Assembly: GCA_016865855.1 (NCBI GenBank)
Contig: VGNX01000011.1
Coordinates: forward strand, 1 to 44,556
Length of the DNA stretch: 44,556 nt
DNA from: Chloroflexota bacterium
Lineage (GTDB): Bacteria > Chloroflexota > Dehalococcoidia > GIF9 > UBA5629
Direction: 5' to 3'
The notes below the pieces were generated by a model that saw nothing but the letters and a program-made list of their open reading frames with translations, had not been told where the DNA came from and did not search any database. Made by a program: the position numbers and the translations under genes. Positions within the stretch are counted from its first letter, which is position 1. Each line of letters opens with the position of its first letter. Shown piece by piece: positions 516 to 28,472 of this stretch.

Positions 516-1019
516 GTGAGCAAAACTAGTGAAAACTTGCAAGCTGCTTTTGGCGGTGAGAGCCAGGCCAGCCGCAAGTACCTGTATTTTGCCGAGAAGG
601 CAGATGCGGAAGGACACAAACAGATAGCCAGGTTGTTCCGCGCCGCATCAGACGCCGAGACAGTCCATGCCCGTAACCACCTGAAGGTGATGCGGGGGAT
701 AAACTCGACCAAGGACAACCTGCTGGCTGCGATTAGTGGTGAGCATCACGAGTTTGCCGAGATGTATCCTGCTTTTATGAAACAGGCCGAGGCCGAAGGT
801 GAGAAGAAGGCAAATGATAGCTTCGACCTGGCAAACAAAGTTGAGCAGATTCATCACCGCCTATATCAGACTGCACTCAGCATGCTGGAAAAGAGTCAGG
901 CGATAGCTGAGAAGCCCATCTACGTCTGCCAGTATTGCGGCAATACCGTCGAGGGTGAAGCTCCTGATAAATGTCCCATCTGCGGAGCACCTAAGAAAAT
1001 GTTCAAGCGAATCGATTAG
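516..1019 (+). CDS. rbr: rubrerythrin
   Basis: Rubrerythrin is a cytoplasmic non-haem di-iron peroxidase that reduces H2O2 in anaerobes with electrons from rubredoxin or NADH-linked donors. The N-terminal about 130 residues are the ferritin-like four-helix domain, with family-typical GGESQASRKY, DAETVHARNH and VEQIHHRLY segments supplying di-iron ligands. The C-terminus is a rubredoxin-like domain with two Cys-x2-Cys pairs (CQYC and CPIC). At 167 aa it is slightly shorter than the usual 190. The start is GTG at 516, with AGGAGGTG seven bases upstream. It appears monocistronic, lies between an inverted-repeat element and a BIME, and implies oxidative-stress defence in an anaerobe. Confidence 0.93.
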   Translation: MSKTSENLQAAFGGESQASRKYLYFAEKADAEGHKQIARLFRAASDAETVHARNHLKVMRGINSTKDNLLAAISGEHHEFAEMYPAFMKQAEAEGEKKANDSFDLANKVEQIHHRLYQTALSMLEKSQAIAEKPIYVCQYCGNTVEGEAPDKCPICGAPKKMFKRID

Positions 1020-1049
1020 AACCTAAAGGCCCTCACCCGCTGTCTTCGA

Positions 1050-1111
1050 TGTAGCTGCGACCTTTTAGAGTCTCTCTTCTATTATAGCGAGGCTAAAGCC
1101 TCGCCGCTACA
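1050..1111. repeat. BIME 1 (paired REP hairpins)
   Basis: TGTAG at the left and CTACA at the right bracket two hairpins. The left arm is decayed (CGACCTTTTAGAGTC). The right arm GCGAGGCTAAAGCCTCGC is intact. It lies just after the rubrerythrin stop and could act as an RNA-level terminator or stabiliser. Confidence 0.75.
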
Positions 1112-1136
1112 TGTCTTTCCTCCCTAAATACCAATG

Positions 1137-1220
1137 ACCAAAATATCAAGAGTTTTCGAATTTAGGTGATTTGGATTTTGATATTGTTTGGAATTTGAGA
1201 TTTGGAATTTAGGATTTGGT
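1137..1220. repeat. degenerate A+T-rich short repeats
   Basis: The stretch repeats short units built around GATTTGG and TTTGGAATTT several times. It has no ORF. It fills the gap between BIMEs 1 and 2 and has the look of slipped-strand sequence. Confidence 0.4.
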
Positions 1221-1226
1221 ACCACA

Positions 1227-1284
1227 TGTAGTTGCGACCCTTTAGGGTCGCCTTCTGTAGCGAGGCTAAAGCCTCGCCGCTATA
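1227..1284. repeat. BIME 2 (paired REP hairpins)
   Basis: Left arm TGTAGTTGCGACC-CTTTAG-GGTCGC and right arm GCGAGGCTAAAGCCTCGC are both well paired. The right foot is CTATA rather than CTACA. It lies just upstream of the proB promoter. Confidence 0.8.
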
Positions 1285-1304
1285 TTAGTAAACAACTCCA
1301 TTAC

Positions 1305-1333
1305 TTGTTGGCTATCTTCCGCCACGCTATAAT
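1305..1333 (+). promoter_or_regulatory. sigma70-type promoter of proB
   Basis: TTGTTG at 1305-1310 and a perfect TATAAT at 1328-1333 are 17 bases apart. The -10 box ends only 8 bases before the proB ATG, so transcription should start at or within two bases of the start codon. That predicts a leaderless mRNA, and no Shine-Dalgarno sequence is visible. Confidence 0.7.
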
Positions 1334-1341
1334 TAGGCGCG

Positions 1342-2454
1342 ATGCTTTATCAACGCATAGTAGCTAAGTTCGGCACCAACTTACTTACGGGAGGGACTGG
1401 CCGCCTTGAGTCTAATATTATGTCAAGTCTTGCAGGGCAGGTGGCTCAGCTTCACCAACAGGGGCACGAAATAATCATCGTGTCTTCGGGGGCAGTTGCT
1501 GCCGGAAGACAGAAATTAGGCCTGACCAAGGAACGCAAAGACGTCCCCTTCAAGCAAGTCCTTGCCTCGGTGGGCCAAAGTCGGCTTATGAATGTCTACG
1601 AGCAGCTTTTCAGTCAGCACAATATAGTCGTGGCTCAGGCGCTACTGACCAAGTCTGACCTCATCGACCGCGCCGGCTACTTGAACGCCCGTAATACGCT
1701 ACTGGCTCTGATTGAATTGGGCGTGATTTGCATCGTAAACGAAAACGACATCGTCGCCACCGATGAACTCGGTGAACTCACCTTCGGAGATAATGACAAT
1801 CTTTCAGCTATGGTGGCTAATTTGGTCGATGCTGACCTTCTGGCACTGCTTACTGACATAGACGGCCTGTACACCGCTGACCCACAGCTTAATCCCCAGG
1901 CCAGGCTTATACCCAAAGTAGAAAAGATAGATGCCGAGATTGAGCGTCTGGCTGGCGACACTACCAGCTCTTACAGCGTCGGTGGCATGATTACCAAACT
2001 CGAGGCTGCCAAACTGGCGACTACTTCAGGCGTAACCATGGTCATCGCCAACGGACGGAAGCCTGATGTCCTGAAACAAATCGCACTTGGGCAAAACATC
2101 GGCACCATATTCCCATCACGAACCAGCAAACTGGAGAGCAAGAAACGCTGGATGCTGAGCCGGCTTGCCTGCAAAGGTAAATTGATAATCGACGATGGCG
2201 CCACACTGGCTCTAAAGAAACAGAACCGGAGCCTGCTTCCCGCCGGGGTTGTGGGTGTTGAAGGTGAATTCCAGCGTGGCGAGGTAGTGGATATTTTCGA
2301 TTCGAAAGGCAGTCAAATCGGCTGCGGCATACCTAACTACAGCTCAAAGGATATCACCGTTATCAAAGGAGCCCACTCCGAGGCAATCTCAGGCCTTCTC
2401 GGCTACGAATACGGCAGCGAGGTAATCCATCGGAATAATATGGTACTACTATAA
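1342..2454 (+). CDS. proB: glutamate 5-kinase
   Basis: It phosphorylates L-glutamate with ATP, the first step of proline synthesis, in the cytoplasm. The first about 260 residues are an amino-acid kinase domain, with VAKFGTNLLTGG near the start, VSSGAVAAGR around residue 50 and FGDNDNLSA around residue 148. The last about 75 residues form a PUA domain typical of full-length ProB (AGVVGVEGEFQRGEVVDI). At 370 aa it matches the family. It is leaderless by prediction. proA follows on the same strand after a repeat-filled gap of about 290 bases, so the pair is linked but probably not tightly co-transcribed. Proline feedback control is expected from the family, not seen. Confidence 0.95.
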   Translation: MLYQRIVAKFGTNLLTGGTGRLESNIMSSLAGQVAQLHQQGHEIIIVSSGAVAAGRQKLGLTKERKDVPFKQVLASVGQSRLMNVYEQLFSQHNIVVAQALLTKSDLIDRAGYLNARNTLLALIELGVICIVNENDIVATDELGELTFGDNDNLSAMVANLVDADLLALLTDIDGLYTADPQLNPQARLIPKVEKIDAEIERLAGDTTSSYSVGGMITKLEAAKLATTSGVTMVIANGRKPDVLKQIALGQNIGTIFPSRTSKLESKKRWMLSRLACKGKLIIDDGATLALKKQNRSLLPAGVVGVEGEFQRGEVVDIFDSKGSQIGCGIPNYSSKDITVIKGAHSEAISGLLGYEYGSEVIHRNNMVLL

Positions 2455-2491
2455 ATGGCGTGTTGAAGAAAAAAGGCAGGCTGTCCGAAAA

Positions 2492-2545
2492 TGTAGTCCC
2501 GATCCTTTAGGGTCGGGCTCCCGAGGCTAAAGCCTCGGGGCTACA
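2492..2545. repeat. BIME 3, carried inside MITE copy 1
   Basis: Left arm CCCGATC-CTTTAG-GGTCGGG and right arm CCCGAGGCTAAAGCCTCGGG are bracketed by TGTAG and CTACA. One T in the left stem makes a G.T wobble that the other two MITE copies lack. Confidence 0.8.
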
Positions 2546-2594
2546 TGTTTAATGTGTATCACCAATGAGCTATAATTTTTCCCACAAAGTAACG

Positions 2595-2665
2595 TGTAGG
2601 GACAGGTCTTTAGACCTGTCCGCAAGCAGTAAGGTGACGGACAGCCCTAAAGGTCTATCCCTACA
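2595..2665. repeat. BIME 4, variant stem type
   Basis: This has the same architecture (TGTAG...CTACA, two hairpins with CTTTAG apex) but a different stem. The left arm GGACAGGT-CTTTAG-ACCTGTCC pairs perfectly over 8 bp. The right arm GGACAGCC-CTAAAG-GTCTATCC is partly decayed. The stem letters differ from all other BIMEs here while the apex and the feet are kept. Confidence 0.75.
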
Positions 2666-2746
2666 CAACAAAAAACCAGTTACTAGTTAAGATAAGCAGT
2701 TGTCCATGGAAAATGGCTAAGTTCGATGACAATCGAGGAGGAAAGT

Positions 2747-4021
2747 ATGAAATCTGCGCTAACTGAGCTTGAAGAAAAAGGCAAGGCGGCTAAGGCAGCT
2801 TCAAGGAAACTCGCCTTCTTACCTACCGAAATTAAGAACAGAGCTCTGCTCAGCGTCGCTGGTGCCCTCAGTGCCAGACAGAACGAGATTCTAGCCGCTA
2901 ACAGCCAGGACTATAAGGAGTCCGAAGCTTCTGGTATGAGCGCAGCTATGCTTGACCGGCTTATGCTGAACCCAAGCCGGCTGGAAGCTATGGCTCAGGA
3001 TGTAAGAACTGTAGCTGCCCTGCCTGACCCGGTGGGTGAGGTGATTGAAGAACGCACCTTGCCCAACGGTCTCCAACTCAGCAAAAAGCGGGTACCGCTT
3101 GGCGTCATCGGCGCCATTTATGAGAGCCGTCCCAATGTAACTGTGGACATCTCTGTGTTATGCCTTAAATCAGGCAATGCCGTCATCCTTCGCGGCGGCA
3201 AGGAGGCACTACGCTCCAACCTGGCTCTGGCCAAGGTTGTTCAAGAAGCCGCCTACAAAGCTGGTGTGCCACAAGGAGCTGTGCAGATCATAGAATCAAC
3301 AGACAGAGCTCTTGTTGACTATATGCTTAAGATGAAGGGCACTATAGACCTCATAATTCCCCGCGGTGGCGCCGGCTTGATTAAGTCTGTTGCTGAAAAT
3401 GCTGCTATGCCTGTAGTTACCGGCGGTATTGGCGTCTGTCATACCTATGCAGACAAGAGCGCCGATTTAAACAAGGCAGTGGCCATCGCCTATAACGCCA
3501 AGGTTCAGCGGCCAACTGTTTGCAACGCTCTGGATACTCTTCTGGTTCACGCTGAAATCGCCCCACGGTACCTGCCTCTAATTGCCCAGGAATGGGCCAA
3601 GGCCGGGGTGGAAATGCACTGCGATAAGCGCGCTTTATCTATTCTCAAACCGATTCCTTCCCTTAAGCTCGTTCCGGCAAAGGCTGATGATTGGGGCAAA
3701 GAATTTCTGGCGCTGATTGCGGCGATTAAGATAGTTGATTCGCCTGACGAGGCGTTGGAACACATCGAGCGCTACGGCTCAGGACACTCTGAGGCCATAG
3801 TTGCCGAGGATAAATCGGCGGCGGCACGCTTTCTCAACGAGGTGGATGCTGCCTGCGTCTATGCCAATGCCAGCACCCGCTTCACCGATGGCGGCCAGTT
3901 AGGCCTGGGCGCTGAAATAGGCATAAGCACGCAAAAGTTCCATGCCCGCGGCCCCATGGCGCTGAGGGAGCTGACCAGCTACAAGTGGATTATTATCGGC
4001 GATGGGCACGTCCGCCCCTAG
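2747..4021 (+). CDS. proA: glutamate-5-semialdehyde dehydrogenase (gamma-glutamyl phosphate reductase)
   Basis: It reduces gamma-glutamyl phosphate to glutamate-5-semialdehyde with NADPH, the second proline step. It is an aldehyde-dehydrogenase-fold protein: VPLGVIGAIYESRPNVT near residue 110, LIIPRGGAGLI near 210, and the catalytic Cys region in KVQRPTVCNALDTLL near 260. The ATG at 2747 is chosen over the in-frame ATG at 2726 because GAGGAGG (2735-2741) stands five bases before it. This gives 424 aa, close to the family norm. It is partner to proB upstream and convergent with rph downstream, with a repeat cluster between. Confidence 0.95.
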   Translation: MKSALTELEEKGKAAKAASRKLAFLPTEIKNRALLSVAGALSARQNEILAANSQDYKESEASGMSAAMLDRLMLNPSRLEAMAQDVRTVAALPDPVGEVIEERTLPNGLQLSKKRVPLGVIGAIYESRPNVTVDISVLCLKSGNAVILRGGKEALRSNLALAKVVQEAAYKAGVPQGAVQIIESTDRALVDYMLKMKGTIDLIIPRGGAGLIKSVAENAAMPVVTGGIGVCHTYADKSADLNKAVAIAYNAKVQRPTVCNALDTLLVHAEIAPRYLPLIAQEWAKAGVEMHCDKRALSILKPIPSLKLVPAKADDWGKEFLALIAAIKIVDSPDEALEHIERYGSGHSEAIVAEDKSAAARFLNEVDAACVYANASTRFTDGGQLGLGAEIGISTQKFHARGPMALRELTSYKWIIIGDGHVRP

Positions 4022-23678: not shown

Positions 23679-23763
23679 CGAGTGCTTATCCTACCCTAAT
23701 TTAGGTAAGCTGTCAATGCAGATTATTTCAAATAGGTTAGTAGCTTCCGTTTTTGGTTAAAAC

Positions 23764-26061
23764 CTAATCCTCTTTAAGCTCCTTTAACAGAGACTCGTTA
23801 TGCATTAAGTCAAGGGTTATTTTGGAGATGCTTTTCATGATATCTGGGAGCATTTCCTCCTTTTCTAATTTAGCTAAATCGTTATATAGGATTAGCGAAT
23901 TTAGGAAAATTGATGTTTCCCACGACCTTTCTATCAGCGCTTGCTGTTTTTCTGACACTTGCTGGCGGCCAAGATAACTACGGAGCACATCAGCATCCAT
24001 ATTGATAAAAACATCTAGATTTTTCCCATTGCCGTTAGTTTCTCCGCTTGGCGCGACTTCACCAATATCTTCTCCTGTCCAACCACGTTCGGTCCAACAG
24101 CTACACCCATCCCTTTTTTCTCTATACACTAAGATTGTCTCAGGCAGCTTATAGGCTTGCGCCTTGTCTTTGTCCTTTTCTCCGTGTGGGCTTACGCTGG
24201 GTTGTATTGGTGGAGTATGTTCAACCTCGAATTCCAAAAAAAGAGAATCCTCATATGGTCGGGTTAATTCAATCGTAACTTCTTGAATTTCACCAACTTT
24301 TGCATTCTCAGGAGGCACAAGCTTAATTGTTATTATCCCATTCCACAGATGGAAAGAACTCATAATATCTGGGCGCATTTTTAGTTCGCCAATCTCCGAT
24401 GCTCGGTCAAAATAGTCATTTGTTGCGTCAGTTTCTAGCTTTAGCCGTGCATAAGAATTTATGGGTATTTGCTTCCTATAAAGCTTGTCTTTTGAGCTAT
24501 AGGACAAGATTTTTAGATATGTGGGAAATCTTTTTCCTTCGTATTTATCAATTGTTGTTGGGCCGGGTTGTTTTACATCCTTAACCCCACCACCCAGTCC
24601 GAGGTAATCTACCAGGGAACGATTATTCTTTATCAGGTTCGATACTACCCCTTCGAGAAACGCAGTGTCCTTCGGATTCTTTATGACCTGTTGCTCCCTG
24701 CGAAACTGGTTTAGTTTCTGAAGGCCCTCATGTTTTCCTAGCTCATCTGCTAACGTCTCCTCGACTTCCCTAGAAATTTGGTTGCGCCTCATGCGTTCTC
24801 TGTCGGGCATAAAGGTCTGCTCCCGAACATTCGTCTCTACATCAGTACAGTCAATATGCACTAGTAGGTAGTCAGCTAAATACCAGAGTTTCGCTTTGGT
24901 TTTTAGGAATGAGCGACCTATTGCAGCATGCGTTTGCCCATTGATAGTGAAAAGGATGGCGTTATCTTGGGTAGTAAATTCGCTTTTGCTAGTACCCTCT
25001 TTGAAGAGAGTAACCTCAACATTTCTTCTACCAAATTTGCCTAGTTCAGCAGTGATAGTTAATGATTGGTCAACGCTGTCTCGGTTGTCGACCATAACTC
25101 GCATCTTATTTCCCAGCATCAACTTAAATGGGCTGTGCCCTTTGTAATCCCTTGCTTCATATAACATGAGGGGCAGCGCAGGGGCATATAGAATCCTGTT
25201 TAGCTCTCGCCACAAGCCAAATCCGATTATCGAAGGGTCAGGCAGATCGTAATTAAACATCTTGATGTATGTTCCGCTTTTGAAGCTTTCATGATTCGGA
25301 AGTATAGTCAGAGGCTCACCAGGGAACGATAGTATTTCTCCATTCTCATCAACGCAGTACTCATACCACGAATTCTTATACGGTGATGGGCCAGTCACGA
25401 TGTAAAGTCTAACCAGAGTGAATCCCCACCTGTCATCTTGATTATATTGAAGTAATTCTGGTGTCTTCCTAGAAAGAATCAATTGATAATGATAATCTCC
25501 ACAGAAGGCCAATACTCCCGATCCCCCCATGTTATATTTTCCTTGGACAAAGCGAATTTTACCCTTATTACCGCCTTGGTGGAGAGAAACAAATGTGTTT
25601 TCGAAGTTGCTTGGATGTTGTCCTTCTCCAGTATCGGCAACTACCATGTTGGGGCGTTCCCTGGAACCTTCAGCGATTATCATTATGTTGCTTGCCAGTT
25701 CTCTCCTCTTTCTCTGCCCAACTTCGGAAAAGTCCCCCTTCTTAATTCCAAAAAATAATTCTACTGCTTCCTGCATTGACTTTGGGGCTTTATCCGACTC
25801 AGGATTAATATTAATTAGCTTGCATTCCTTCAAAAGCAGGTGGTCGATAGAATTAATGGGTTTTTCGGCAAGGGAGGCGGCTGGATTCTGCTGCTGGTTG
25901 TGAATAGTGTTGAAATTCCCTTGGTAACCACCGTAGGGCTTCCAATTTTGCTCCTTGCTTAATATTGGGTCGTCTTCGATAATCTGCTTAACTTCAACTT
26001 CAGAGCATGCTGAAACCAGCTTTAGTAAAAGTCCCTTCGCTACTTCTGATTTTGTGTCCAT
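23764..26061 (-). CDS. GHKL-family ATP-binding protein, possible defence ATPase
   Basis: It is a large (765 aa) Hsp90/histidine-kinase-like ATPase. The N box EKPINSIDHLLLKEC is at about residue 66-80, VADTGEG at about residue 141-147 contacts adenine, and the G2 loop GKYNMGGSG is at about residue 174-182. A transducer-like beta region follows to about residue 400. The C-terminal half, with a Cys pair in CSCW, is unfamiliar. ATG 26061 is two bases after the upstream stop; a longer frame to 26127 overlaps that gene and lacks a ribosome site. MORC/MutL-like GHKL ATPases occur in restriction and defence loci. The exact function is unknown. Confidence 0.7.
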   Translation of the reverse strand: MDTKSEVAKGLLLKLVSACSEVEVKQIIEDDPILSKEQNWKPYGGYQGNFNTIHNQQQNPAASLAEKPINSIDHLLLKECKLININPESDKAPKSMQEAVELFFGIKKGDFSEVGQRKRRELASNIMIIAEGSRERPNMVVADTGEGQHPSNFENTFVSLHQGGNKGKIRFVQGKYNMGGSGVLAFCGDYHYQLILSRKTPELLQYNQDDRWGFTLVRLYIVTGPSPYKNSWYEYCVDENGEILSFPGEPLTILPNHESFKSGTYIKMFNYDLPDPSIIGFGLWRELNRILYAPALPLMLYEARDYKGHSPFKLMLGNKMRVMVDNRDSVDQSLTITAELGKFGRRNVEVTLFKEGTSKSEFTTQDNAILFTINGQTHAAIGRSFLKTKAKLWYLADYLLVHIDCTDVETNVREQTFMPDRERMRRNQISREVEETLADELGKHEGLQKLNQFRREQQVIKNPKDTAFLEGVVSNLIKNNRSLVDYLGLGGGVKDVKQPGPTTIDKYEGKRFPTYLKILSYSSKDKLYRKQIPINSYARLKLETDATNDYFDRASEIGELKMRPDIMSSFHLWNGIITIKLVPPENAKVGEIQEVTIELTRPYEDSLFLEFEVEHTPPIQPSVSPHGEKDKDKAQAYKLPETILVYREKRDGCSCWTERGWTGEDIGEVAPSGETNGNGKNLDVFINMDADVLRSYLGRQQVSEKQQALIERSWETSIFLNSLILYNDLAKLEKEEMLPDIMKSISKITLDLMHNESLLKELKED

Positions 26062-26063
26062 TT

Positions 26064-26528
26064 CTAGTTTTGTTTTCCTCCCCCTCGAGTTTTGTGACGA
26101 ATAACTCGCTTTCGAGTCATTTTCCATCCTTTCAAAGCATAGGTGCCCCGCTTTATACGCTTGAACCGCGGGTCAATACTAATGTGTGCTATTAGGTTTG
26201 TTGCAGGGTCTTGTCCGGGAATCTCAAAGCCTTTTTGCTGGATTGCCGCGCATAAGTCCTTATAGTACATAGGAGTTCCAGCATCTTTTAGTACATCATA
26301 GGCCATATCGGCAACTCGTTTCTTATCTTTGGCAACGATGTTTGAACTATTTCGGGTTGTAGCGATTGTTTCGAGAGGATGTTCTTCCAAGTTAAGCAAC
26401 CTCTCGATTGCTGTTAGTTTTTCGTGTTTTACCTTTAATTCTTTTTCTATAGGGGCTAGTTGCGCTTGCAAACCTTCGATCTCTCGCAGTAGAATTTGCT
26501 TCCATTCGTGTAATTTTTCTTGGTCCAT
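26064..26528 (-). CDS. HARE-HTH domain protein
   Basis: It is a 154-aa protein. Residues 1-50 are a coiled coil (ILLREIEGLQAQLAPIEKEL...). Residues about 70-140 are a HARE-HTH winged helix: MAYDVLKDAGTPMYYKDLC, GFEIPGQDPATNLIAHISID and RFKRIKRGTYALKGW. The tail is very basic (RKRVIRHKTRGGGKQN). HARE-HTH domains occur in RpoE delta, restriction enzymes and chromatin factors and are thought to read DNA or its modification. AGGAGG lies five bases before the ATG. It is the first gene of a two-gene operon with the GHKL ATPase. Confidence 0.8.
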   Translation of the reverse strand: MDQEKLHEWKQILLREIEGLQAQLAPIEKELKVKHEKLTAIERLLNLEEHPLETIATTRNSSNIVAKDKKRVADMAYDVLKDAGTPMYYKDLCAAIQQKGFEIPGQDPATNLIAHISIDPRFKRIKRGTYALKGWKMTRKRVIRHKTRGGGKQN

Positions 26529-26556
26529 CTTTGCCTCCTAGTTTAGATTTATATAA

Positions 26557-26585
26557 AGTTTAGCATAGAATTTATAATTTGTCAA
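26557..26585 (-). promoter_or_regulatory. promoter of the HARE-HTH/GHKL operon
   Basis: On the minus strand a perfect TTGACA (26585-26580) is 17 bases from TAAACT (26562-26557). The surrounding sequence is strongly A+T-rich. The box lies 28 bases before the ATG, leaving a short leader that includes AGGAGG. Confidence 0.75.
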
Positions 26586-26867
26586 GTATTTTGAGTTATA
26601 TAATAGAGAATAACTAGCTGAAATTTTAGATGATAAGAAAGCCGACTAAGAGTCAGCCTTCAAACCTTACTTGGCAAGGGGCTAAATTTAAACCGGTGAG
26701 TTGTTTGATAGCTTTTAGTTATCTGAACAAATAGCCCCAGATTGACATTTTCACATATTTGGTCACTGTGTATCCGCATTTTCTTTCACCTTGTGAGCGA
26801 GTCCTTGGTTGCTCTTGCTACTCGTGTCATATTGCGTTAGACTGATAGCAGTAATAGAGGCAGGTCT
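26586..26867. other. divergent intergenic region, no gene seen
   Basis: I see no supported gene. An imperfect stem (AAGCCGACTAAGAGTCAGCCTT, 26638-26661) is the only structure noticed. The only short frames here are antisense overlaps of the neighbouring plus-strand gene. Confidence 0.4.
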
Positions 26868-28472
26868 GTGATACGACTGAGATTCTACGGCGGCGTCAAC
26901 GAAATCGGCGGCAACAAGATACTTCTCGAGGATGGAGAGCGGAGGCTGCTGCTCGACTTCGGCTTTCCTTATAAGAGACACAAACTCTTCTACGAAGAGT
27001 ACCTCAAGCCTCGCAGCGGCGCCGGCTTGCTTGACCCTCTGACAATGGGTTTGCTCCCACCATTGGAGGGACTTTATCGAGATGACCTGATGGCACCGGG
27101 CCTGTGGCATCAGTTCCGGCATAGTTCTCTTTACCGTAAGCTCGACCAGCTAGACGGCGTGCTACTGTCTCACGCCCATCTCGACCATTCCGGACACATA
27201 GCGTTCCTCAGAGATGATATCCCAGTATATGCCACCGTGACCACGGCGTTTATTGCCAAGGCAGTTCAAGATTCGGGTAAAGCGGACTTTGACCAGCAGG
27301 TATGTTACTTTGACCATAAGGAACCAGGTCGTCCCTCTGGTTGGAAACAGGAGGCGTTGCTTACCACTGATAAGAAACAGCAGCGGCAGTTTTGCATTGC
27401 CGATATAGAACTAAAAGACTTGAGTGATGATGCTAGCAAATTCTGGCTTAAATCTCCGGGGCAAAAACCTCTTATCTCCTGTCCCCTGACCAGCCACAGT
27501 AGCTGTAGCTTCAATCTGCGTTGCTTCCCGGTTGACCACTCTATACCGGGTGCCTGTGCTTGGGGTATTGAGACCAGCTCCGGCTGGATTATTTATAGCG
27601 GTGACCTGCGTTTGCATGGCAAACGGGCTGCGCTTACTAAGAAATTCATTGAGGACGCCGGCAGCCTGCATCCCAGGGCACTTATCTTGGAAGGCACGAA
27701 TGTGACCCGCAAAACGAATGTGGCTGAGCATGAAGTGTATGAAAATGGGTTGAAGGCTATAAAAGGTACTACCGGACTCGTCATCGCCGATTTTCCTCCC
27801 CGGGATGTAGACCGTCTGCTCACCTTCTTGCAGATTGCCAAGGATACAGGCAGGAAGCTGGCTATATTACCGAAAGACGCTTATTTACTAAAGACCATGC
27901 GTCTCCTGGAGCCAGGTATCCCTGAGATTGCTCAGGAAGATAGCATCGTCATATATCAGGATACCATTGCCAGCAAGAGCCTCAATCTGTGGGTGCAGAA
28001 CTTGTGCAAGGATTACGGGAGCAAGATGATTCTGGCTGAGGATGTGCGTTTGGCTGAGGACAAGTTTATCCTGTGTTTCAGCTTCTGGGACTTGAATGAA
28101 TTGCCCAGTATTCGCCCCAAACCGGGCAGCCTCTATGTTTTCAGCTCCAGCGAACCCCACGATGAAGAGCAGGAGATTGATTTCCGTCGTTTGCACAAGT
28201 GGCTCGAGCACTTCAAGATGCGAGGAGTCGGGCTTCCTGTAGAGAAAAAGAAGAACGGCGAGAAGAGCGAGTGGGAAATACCTGAAGGAGAGAGGGGGCT
28301 ACATGCTTCCGGTCATGCCTGCGGCCCGGACCTGCTTGAGGTTGCTCGAGGAATAAAGCCCGAAGTCCTCATCCCTGTCCATAGCGAATGTCCCGATTTC
28401 TACATTGACCACTTGAGCGGCAGTGGGATTGATGTCCTTCTCCCGACTGCAGGCGGCACAGTTGAAGTGTGA
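26868..28472 (+). CDS. RNase J-like metallo-beta-lactamase/beta-CASP protein
   Basis: It is a predicted metal-dependent ribonuclease. FYGGVNEIGGNKILLED at the N-terminus and LLSHAHLDHSGH (H102-x-H104-x-D106-H107) give the two-metal site. Later MBL ligands are in FPVDHSIPG and IYSGDLRLHG. The C-terminal ASGHACGPDLLEVARGIKPE and PVHSECPDF match RNase J/beta-CASP motifs. At 534 aa it is near RNase J length, but the segment from about residue 30 to 95 is longer than usual and the RNase J C-terminal dimer domain seems absent. The start is GTG 26868. It is a single gene, and the RNA substrate is unknown. Confidence 0.8.
   Translation: MIRLRFYGGVNEIGGNKILLEDGERRLLLDFGFPYKRHKLFYEEYLKPRSGAGLLDPLTMGLLPPLEGLYRDDLMAPGLWHQFRHSSLYRKLDQLDGVLLSHAHLDHSGHIAFLRDDIPVYATVTTAFIAKAVQDSGKADFDQQVCYFDHKEPGRPSGWKQEALLTTDKKQQRQFCIADIELKDLSDDASKFWLKSPGQKPLISCPLTSHSSCSFNLRCFPVDHSIPGACAWGIETSSGWIIYSGDLRLHGKRAALTKKFIEDAGSLHPRALILEGTNVTRKTNVAEHEVYENGLKAIKGTTGLVIADFPPRDVDRLLTFLQIAKDTGRKLAILPKDAYLLKTMRLLEPGIPEIAQEDSIVIYQDTIASKSLNLWVQNLCKDYGSKMILAEDVRLAEDKFILCFSFWDLNELPSIRPKPGSLYVFSSSEPHDEEQEIDFRRLHKWLEHFKMRGVGLPVEKKKNGEKSEWEIPEGERGLHASGHACGPDLLEVARGIKPEVLIPVHSECPDFYIDHLSGSGIDVLLPTAGGTVEV

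Follow-up and report, generated by a model that had tools for sequence, protein, structure and literature searches.

A two-gene HARE-HTH and GHKL ATPase operon in a Chloroflexota bacterium: a probable, atypical defence system without a nuclease, related to a known type

The window analysed here is a stretch of 44,556 nucleotides from a Chloroflexota bacterium (contig VGNX01000011.1 of assembly GCA_016865855.1). It carries a two-gene operon on the minus strand at 23764-26528, in which a HARE-HTH gene is followed, 2 bases on, by a GHKL ATPase gene. Both open reading frames, their coordinates and the 2-base gap are as given in the first-pass annotation of this DNA. The features of the locus are:

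23764-26061, minus strand: GHKL ATPase of 765 aa with its ATG at 26061 (open reading frame and conserved ATP motifs)
26064-26528, minus strand: HARE-HTH protein of 154 aa (open reading frame and Pfam PF05066)
26585-26557, minus strand: candidate promoter, TTGACA-17-TGnTAAACT (consensus scan, 10/12 matches)
26637-26662, no strand: hairpin upstream of the promoter (matched arm changes in the related loci L014 and L015)
23719-26722, no strand: insert of ~3.0 kb carrying the operon (absent as a block from the genomes G568 and G530; the lowest-GC 3 kb)

An alternative start of the ATPase at 26127 is possible and gives a protein of 787 aa. The intergenic gap is 2 bases in the window, 2-3 in close relatives and 15 in the locus L026. 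The HARE gene has a dN/dS of 0.10-0.14 and the ATPase gene one of 0.15-0.19, compared with 0.10 for the adjoining FolP and 0.07 for QueD; both genes are thus under purifying selection, somewhat less strict than that on FolP and QueD. The operon had been described as driven by a strong isolated promoter. The 10/12 motif is present, and its TTGACA element is also seen in L014 and L015, but it shares the top score of the region with one other match, and since the 7 matches of the scan are close to the 6.6 found in shuffles, the operon promoter is only suggestive. The arms of the hairpin are GCCGACT/AGTCAGC in the window, and GGCTGAC/GTCAGCC and GGGTGGC/GCCACCC at the equivalent positions of L014 and L015, with covariation read by eye from these three sequences; the hairpin is perhaps a terminator that insulates the operon. 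The statement that no nuclease or methylase lies next door is correct for the operon, and the divergent neighbour at 26868 encodes an RNase-J-like metallo-beta-lactamase protein. This gene was considered as a member of the system and dropped: in G530 it stands next to the same genes in the absence of the cassette, and in L014 and G701 the cassette adjoins another gene. Elsewhere in the window, an interspersed repeat (at about 7700, 32713, 36012, 38170 and 41414) was noticed as short blastn matches between unrelated stretches, and it is common to other contigs of the genus.

The HARE-HTH protein matches Pfam PF05066 at E=1e-7 with 32.7 bits, above the cut-off of 25.9, and the domain first assigned to it is thereby confirmed. 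It consists of a helix or coiled coil at about residues 3-49 and a winged-helix HARE domain at about 62-135, and in the AF2 model (pLDDT 72) the N-terminal helix is long and a winged helix is present. In a fold search of the PDB with the winged helix, the RNA polymerase delta subunit and Rok ranked top (E 0.005-0.07), Rok being second at E=0.0066, and no match fell under E 0.001. The Pfam family WH_Rok also gave a weak match (E=0.0028). Rok of Bacillus subtilis and the HARE protein are alike in their layout of an N-terminal helical part and a C-terminal winged helix, with a weak sequence match. Rok is not known to be paired with an ATPase in this way.

The GHKL motifs of the ATPase, previously called intact, are conserved over 19 homologues. 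N70 and D73 are kept in every row that covers them, except for one change of D73 to E, and D143, G145, G147, K166, G174 and G179 are invariant in 19/19 rows. The match of the window ATPase to Pfam HATPase_c_3 is sub-threshold (E=0.06), and 10 of the 19 homologues match this family, the best at 9.5e-6. A profile of the family aligned over the ATP motifs with TopoVI-B (E 0.083) and MORC4 (E 0.28), while single-sequence searches of the PDB gave no significant match, and the AF2 model made from four alignment rows has a pLDDT of 33.6, too low for use. Judged by these motifs, the window ATPase is assigned to the GHKL ATPase superfamily, as a distant relation of MutL and MORC. Its subclass was compared with MORC proper, paraMORC2, paraMORC3 and paraMORC5. 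The MORC-defining S5 motif GhXhhpXXRhl is absent in 19/19 rows, and an NGQ plus FxxxR region is conserved downstream of the GHKL part. For the paraMORC2 motif ExxxH, one ELGKH occurs at 440 in the window ATPase and is not conserved among relatives. For the PD-(D/E)xK motif of paraMORC3 and GHKL-Shedu, neither a conserved Lys nor such a D-(D/E)xK pattern is present in the 19 rows beyond residue 430, and the C-terminal HxH of paraMORC5 was not found in the window ATPase. A Pfam scan of the window proteins and the ATPase homologues gave no nuclease match, and neither operon protein appears to have a recognisable nuclease, motif absence being no proof. In PADLOC-DB, no model matches either window protein, and the 19 ATPases have no convincing match, the best being one member with E=0.0044 to TmtA.

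The operon lies in an insert with a GC of 0.417, the lowest 3 kb of the window (mean 0.484, sd 0.020). Two empty sites were found. In G568, of the same family, the operon flanks are joined with 14 bp between them, and in G530, of the same genus, homology ends at 23717 and resumes at 26832 of the window, with 40 bp between. The ATPase gene of G284 has 45% GC inside a stretch of 63% GC. DNA identity between the window and L014 and L015 is 0.86-0.96 over 23800-25700, within the ATPase gene, compared with about 0.70-0.85 in the flanks, and it returns to 0.74-0.84 in the HARE gene. By these identities, 23800-25700 looks like a recombination tract, in which that part of the ATPase would have been exchanged more recently. 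The ATPase of L014 (contig C87 of G1137, 981-3276) is frameshifted, and this may be an assembly error or the contig may be mis-binned. G1137 is placed in another family and has 7% contamination, and L014 is not counted as independent.

A single-sequence query found the ATPase in 10/400 genomes of the phylum, and a profile found it in 22/393 genomes of the class. In the order, 9/84 genomes have it; it is absent from the same-genus genomes G530 and G1144. It also occurs in 5 of 380 genomes of the phylum to which the Curtissbacteria genome belongs, two of the five being weak and broken, and in 8 plasmid records from Bacteroidota, Bacillota, Alphaproteobacteria, Actinomycetota and haloarchaea. No relatives were found in phage records and viral contigs. 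The distribution supports a family that is widespread, patchy and accessory rather than housekeeping, which is the opposite of what the first-pass annotation had named as evidence against a defence role, namely homologues that occur only as conserved housekeeping genes.

The HARE gene adjoins the ATPase gene in the group of the window, G701 and L014, and in L026, while a gene for a type II-like N6/N4 MTase separates the two in L033 and L070. The window HARE-HTH gene is the sole one of its own genome (G000), and in G701, G735, G284 and G263 the sole HARE-HTH gene is likewise the ATPase neighbour; ten other genomes of the same set have no HARE-HTH gene. A rough binomial estimate over the seven genomes holding both genes puts the chance of this adjacency at 4e-13, or 2e-10 if two same-genus genomes count once. 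The two families are therefore linked at other loci as well, contrary to the possibility that they are unlinked elsewhere. In the class as a whole, 51/393 genomes have a HARE-HTH gene, and most of these lack this ATPase, so the HARE domain is not specific to the system. A HARE profile gave no match in the genomes from which L016 and L017 come, in a search run without a positive control. The ATPase tree clusters by partner, so that HARE is found as a partner in two clades far apart from each other. Supported clades correspond to an N6-type MTase, a C5 MTase (in some loci accompanied by Vsr), SspABCD and a haloarchaeal C5 MTase, and further groups have HARE, or HARE plus an N6/N4 methylase. The deep joins of the tree are unsure because of long branches.

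A neighbourhood survey of homologues for defence-gene enrichment, which had been proposed as a check, covered 38 ATPase loci after near-identical ones were merged. A modification gene lies within 6 kb in 27/38 of them and within 1.5 kb in 24/38, including N6/N4 or C5 methylases, SspABCD phosphorothioation genes and DndB; L021 was unflagged by the counting script, though its annotation shows Ssp-type genes 3-8 kb away. By chance, such a neighbour would be expected at an estimated few loci of 38, a figure based on about eight N6/N4 methylase loci in the 2 Mb genome of the window. In the window clade, neither a modification gene nor a nuclease gene adjoins the operon, and the surroundings are housekeeping genes and not a defence island. 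A fixed pairing of ATPase and methylase in this clade was dropped after the survey.

Several other genes stand beside the ATPase in the wider family. An excisionase-like winged-helix protein of about 230 aa lies directly upstream at L154:6691-7407, L157:9778-10467, L158:3823-4515 and L065:7182-7874, as a second exchangeable partner. In eight loci, a coiled-coil-like protein of 70-93 aa with a conserved YxYT..V(R/K)xxF lies just upstream (L016:2084-2296, L017:9666-9947, L063:7405-7674, L071:7709-7945, and also L062, L029, L138 and L156), and the one that was scanned against Pfam had no convincing family. SIR2-like genes adjoin the ATPase at L138:5916-6953 and L018:12457-13296, the pair of genes in L138 overlapping, and DndB-family genes lie directly upstream at L027:11144-12301 and L025:7191-8363. 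At two SspABCD loci (L020:5327-9702 and L021:12533-17035), a sensor-kinase-like GHKL gene and a large partner gene stand beside the ATPase. This is likely the HEF_HK/Response_reg_2 pair, in which a GHKL protein occurs at restriction-modification loci and is suggested to be paraMORC-derived (PMC8011034); HEF_HK is a different protein from the window ATPase.

A role of MORC and paraMORC GHKL ATPases in restriction systems was predicted in 2008 (Iyer, Abhiman, Aravind, PMC2292703). The paraMORC1-5 and prokaryotic MORC proteins resemble the window family in that a GHKL ATPase, its motifs intact, forms the N-terminus and is followed by a long C-terminal part, in being sporadic and laterally mobile, and in their linkage to DNA methylases and Vsr and, in haloarchaea, to a helicase and phospholipase-D. 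The window family differs by the absence of the MORC motif in the 19 rows, and a C-terminal RE-fold or HxH extension was not seen; the parts of the paper drawn on here do not mention a HARE-HTH partner. VcSduA is a Shedu protein with an N-terminal GHKL ATPase, described as the former paraMORC3 type, and it is a defence protein whose ATPase domain is proposed to control the effector (PMC12137116). It carries a C-terminal PD-(D/E)xK nuclease (DUF4263), whereas the window ATPase is without such a motif. HARE-HTH restriction enzymes occur at Dnd and BREX loci and are similar in placing HARE-HTH in a DNA-conflict setting, where they are proposed to discriminate modified DNA (PMC10853773, PMC12839542), and the domain has been proposed as a reader of modified DNA (PMC10853773, PMC11037411). 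In Dnd and BREX, HARE is fused to the REase, whereas in the window operon HARE is a protein of its own, accompanied by a GHKL ATPase but by no nuclease. The window clade is distinct by its HARE-HTH partner and by the absence of a linked methylase or nuclease. A literature search for HARE-HTH, GHKL and ATPase together found no paper among open-licence full texts. In the papers searched, no experiment on any member of the ATPase family was found, and GHKL-Shedu was the only tested prokaryotic MORC/paraMORC member. The idea of GHKL ATPases in restriction is already known, and the HARE-linked form without methylase or nuclease is a new variant rather than a new category.

Since related ATPases sit beside DNA-modification enzymes in many microbes, the two genes probably represent an atypical form, lacking a nuclease, of an already known type of defence against foreign DNA. 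We think it rather probable that it is a horizontally moving two-gene defence module, composed of a HARE-HTH DNA-binding adaptor and a MORC/paraMORC-like GHKL ATPase. From sequence comparison, a defence role appears well supported, as a predicted member of the radiation proposed in 2008 and not as a new kind. Of the earlier proposal of a candidate undescribed defence system, the accessory and modification- or defence-linked character holds, while "undescribed" does not, the ATPase class having been predicted in 2008 (PMC2292703). Most likely, the pair would work as a DNA clamp that is driven by ATP and that the HARE protein loads. The HARE protein would dimerise via its N-terminal helix and bind DNA with its winged helix, perhaps preferring DNA with (or without) base modification, and would load the ATPase onto the DNA. 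ATP binding would then close the GHKL domains into a clamp, which may block, loop or compact the invading DNA or, alternatively, pass it on to a restriction nuclease, either of the host or unlinked. For the window clade, three cases are conceivable: it works with no methylase, it relies on an unlinked one, or its methylase has been lost. A specific form, silencing free of both nuclease and methylase, with HARE as the protein that marks foreign DNA and the MORC-like ATPase as the clamp that compacts it, is considered unlikely; if true, it would be a bacterial counterpart of the silencing that MORC proteins mediate in eukaryotes.

Among the rival explanations, a split restriction-modification system is somewhat unlikely. 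The pair would be the restriction or regulatory half, with the methylase encoded elsewhere in the genome, and HARE would read the methylation state while the ATPase licenses cleavage by a separate nuclease. The MTase gene between HARE and ATPase in L033 and L070, the MTase 3 kb from the ATPase in L026 and the roughly eight N6/N4 MTase loci elsewhere in the own genome, examined as sequence stretches, are consistent with this. The nearest of these to the L033 MTase, at G000:C35, overlaps its own downstream gene in an apparently complete two-gene system (L139), so there is no clear orphan MTase. The Rok layout of the HARE protein, with its weak WH_Rok and fold matches, and the missing nuclease motif would also suit a silencer, in which a Rok-like coiled-coil/winged-helix binder and a MORC-like ATPase compact and silence AT-rich foreign DNA without cutting it. 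Winged helices resemble one another, and modification sensing accounts better for an ATPase family that is linked to methylases and phosphorothioation, which makes such a silencer quite unlikely.

The pair could also be a decayed remnant of restriction-modification that has lost its methylase and nuclease, given that a modification gene accompanies most relatives but is missing from the window clade, and that the L014 copy of the ATPase is frameshifted. Both genes are open in the window and L015 with a dN/dS of about 0.15, the ATP motifs are intact and the two genes remain linked, so decay is very unlikely. GHKL motifs and the C5 MTase and Vsr neighbours of two ATPase relatives recall MutL, and a MutL-type DNA-repair or housekeeping factor is nevertheless extremely improbable in view of the patchy occurrence within the genus, the empty sites, the atypical GC and a separate gene opening with MutL-like sequence at G000:C35 (L139:5992-7632). 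A housekeeping repair role was dropped on this distribution.

Taken as a probable defence module, the pair belongs to an ATPase family that offers a set of natural variants, in which the core is kept and the modification enzyme and the small partner (HARE-HTH, excisionase-like winged helix or short coiled-coil protein) are exchanged. The window pair is the smallest form, with two genes and no nuclease, and would therefore be a compact test of whether a GHKL clamp is enough by itself to stop foreign DNA, as well as a test case for what HARE-HTH domains read.
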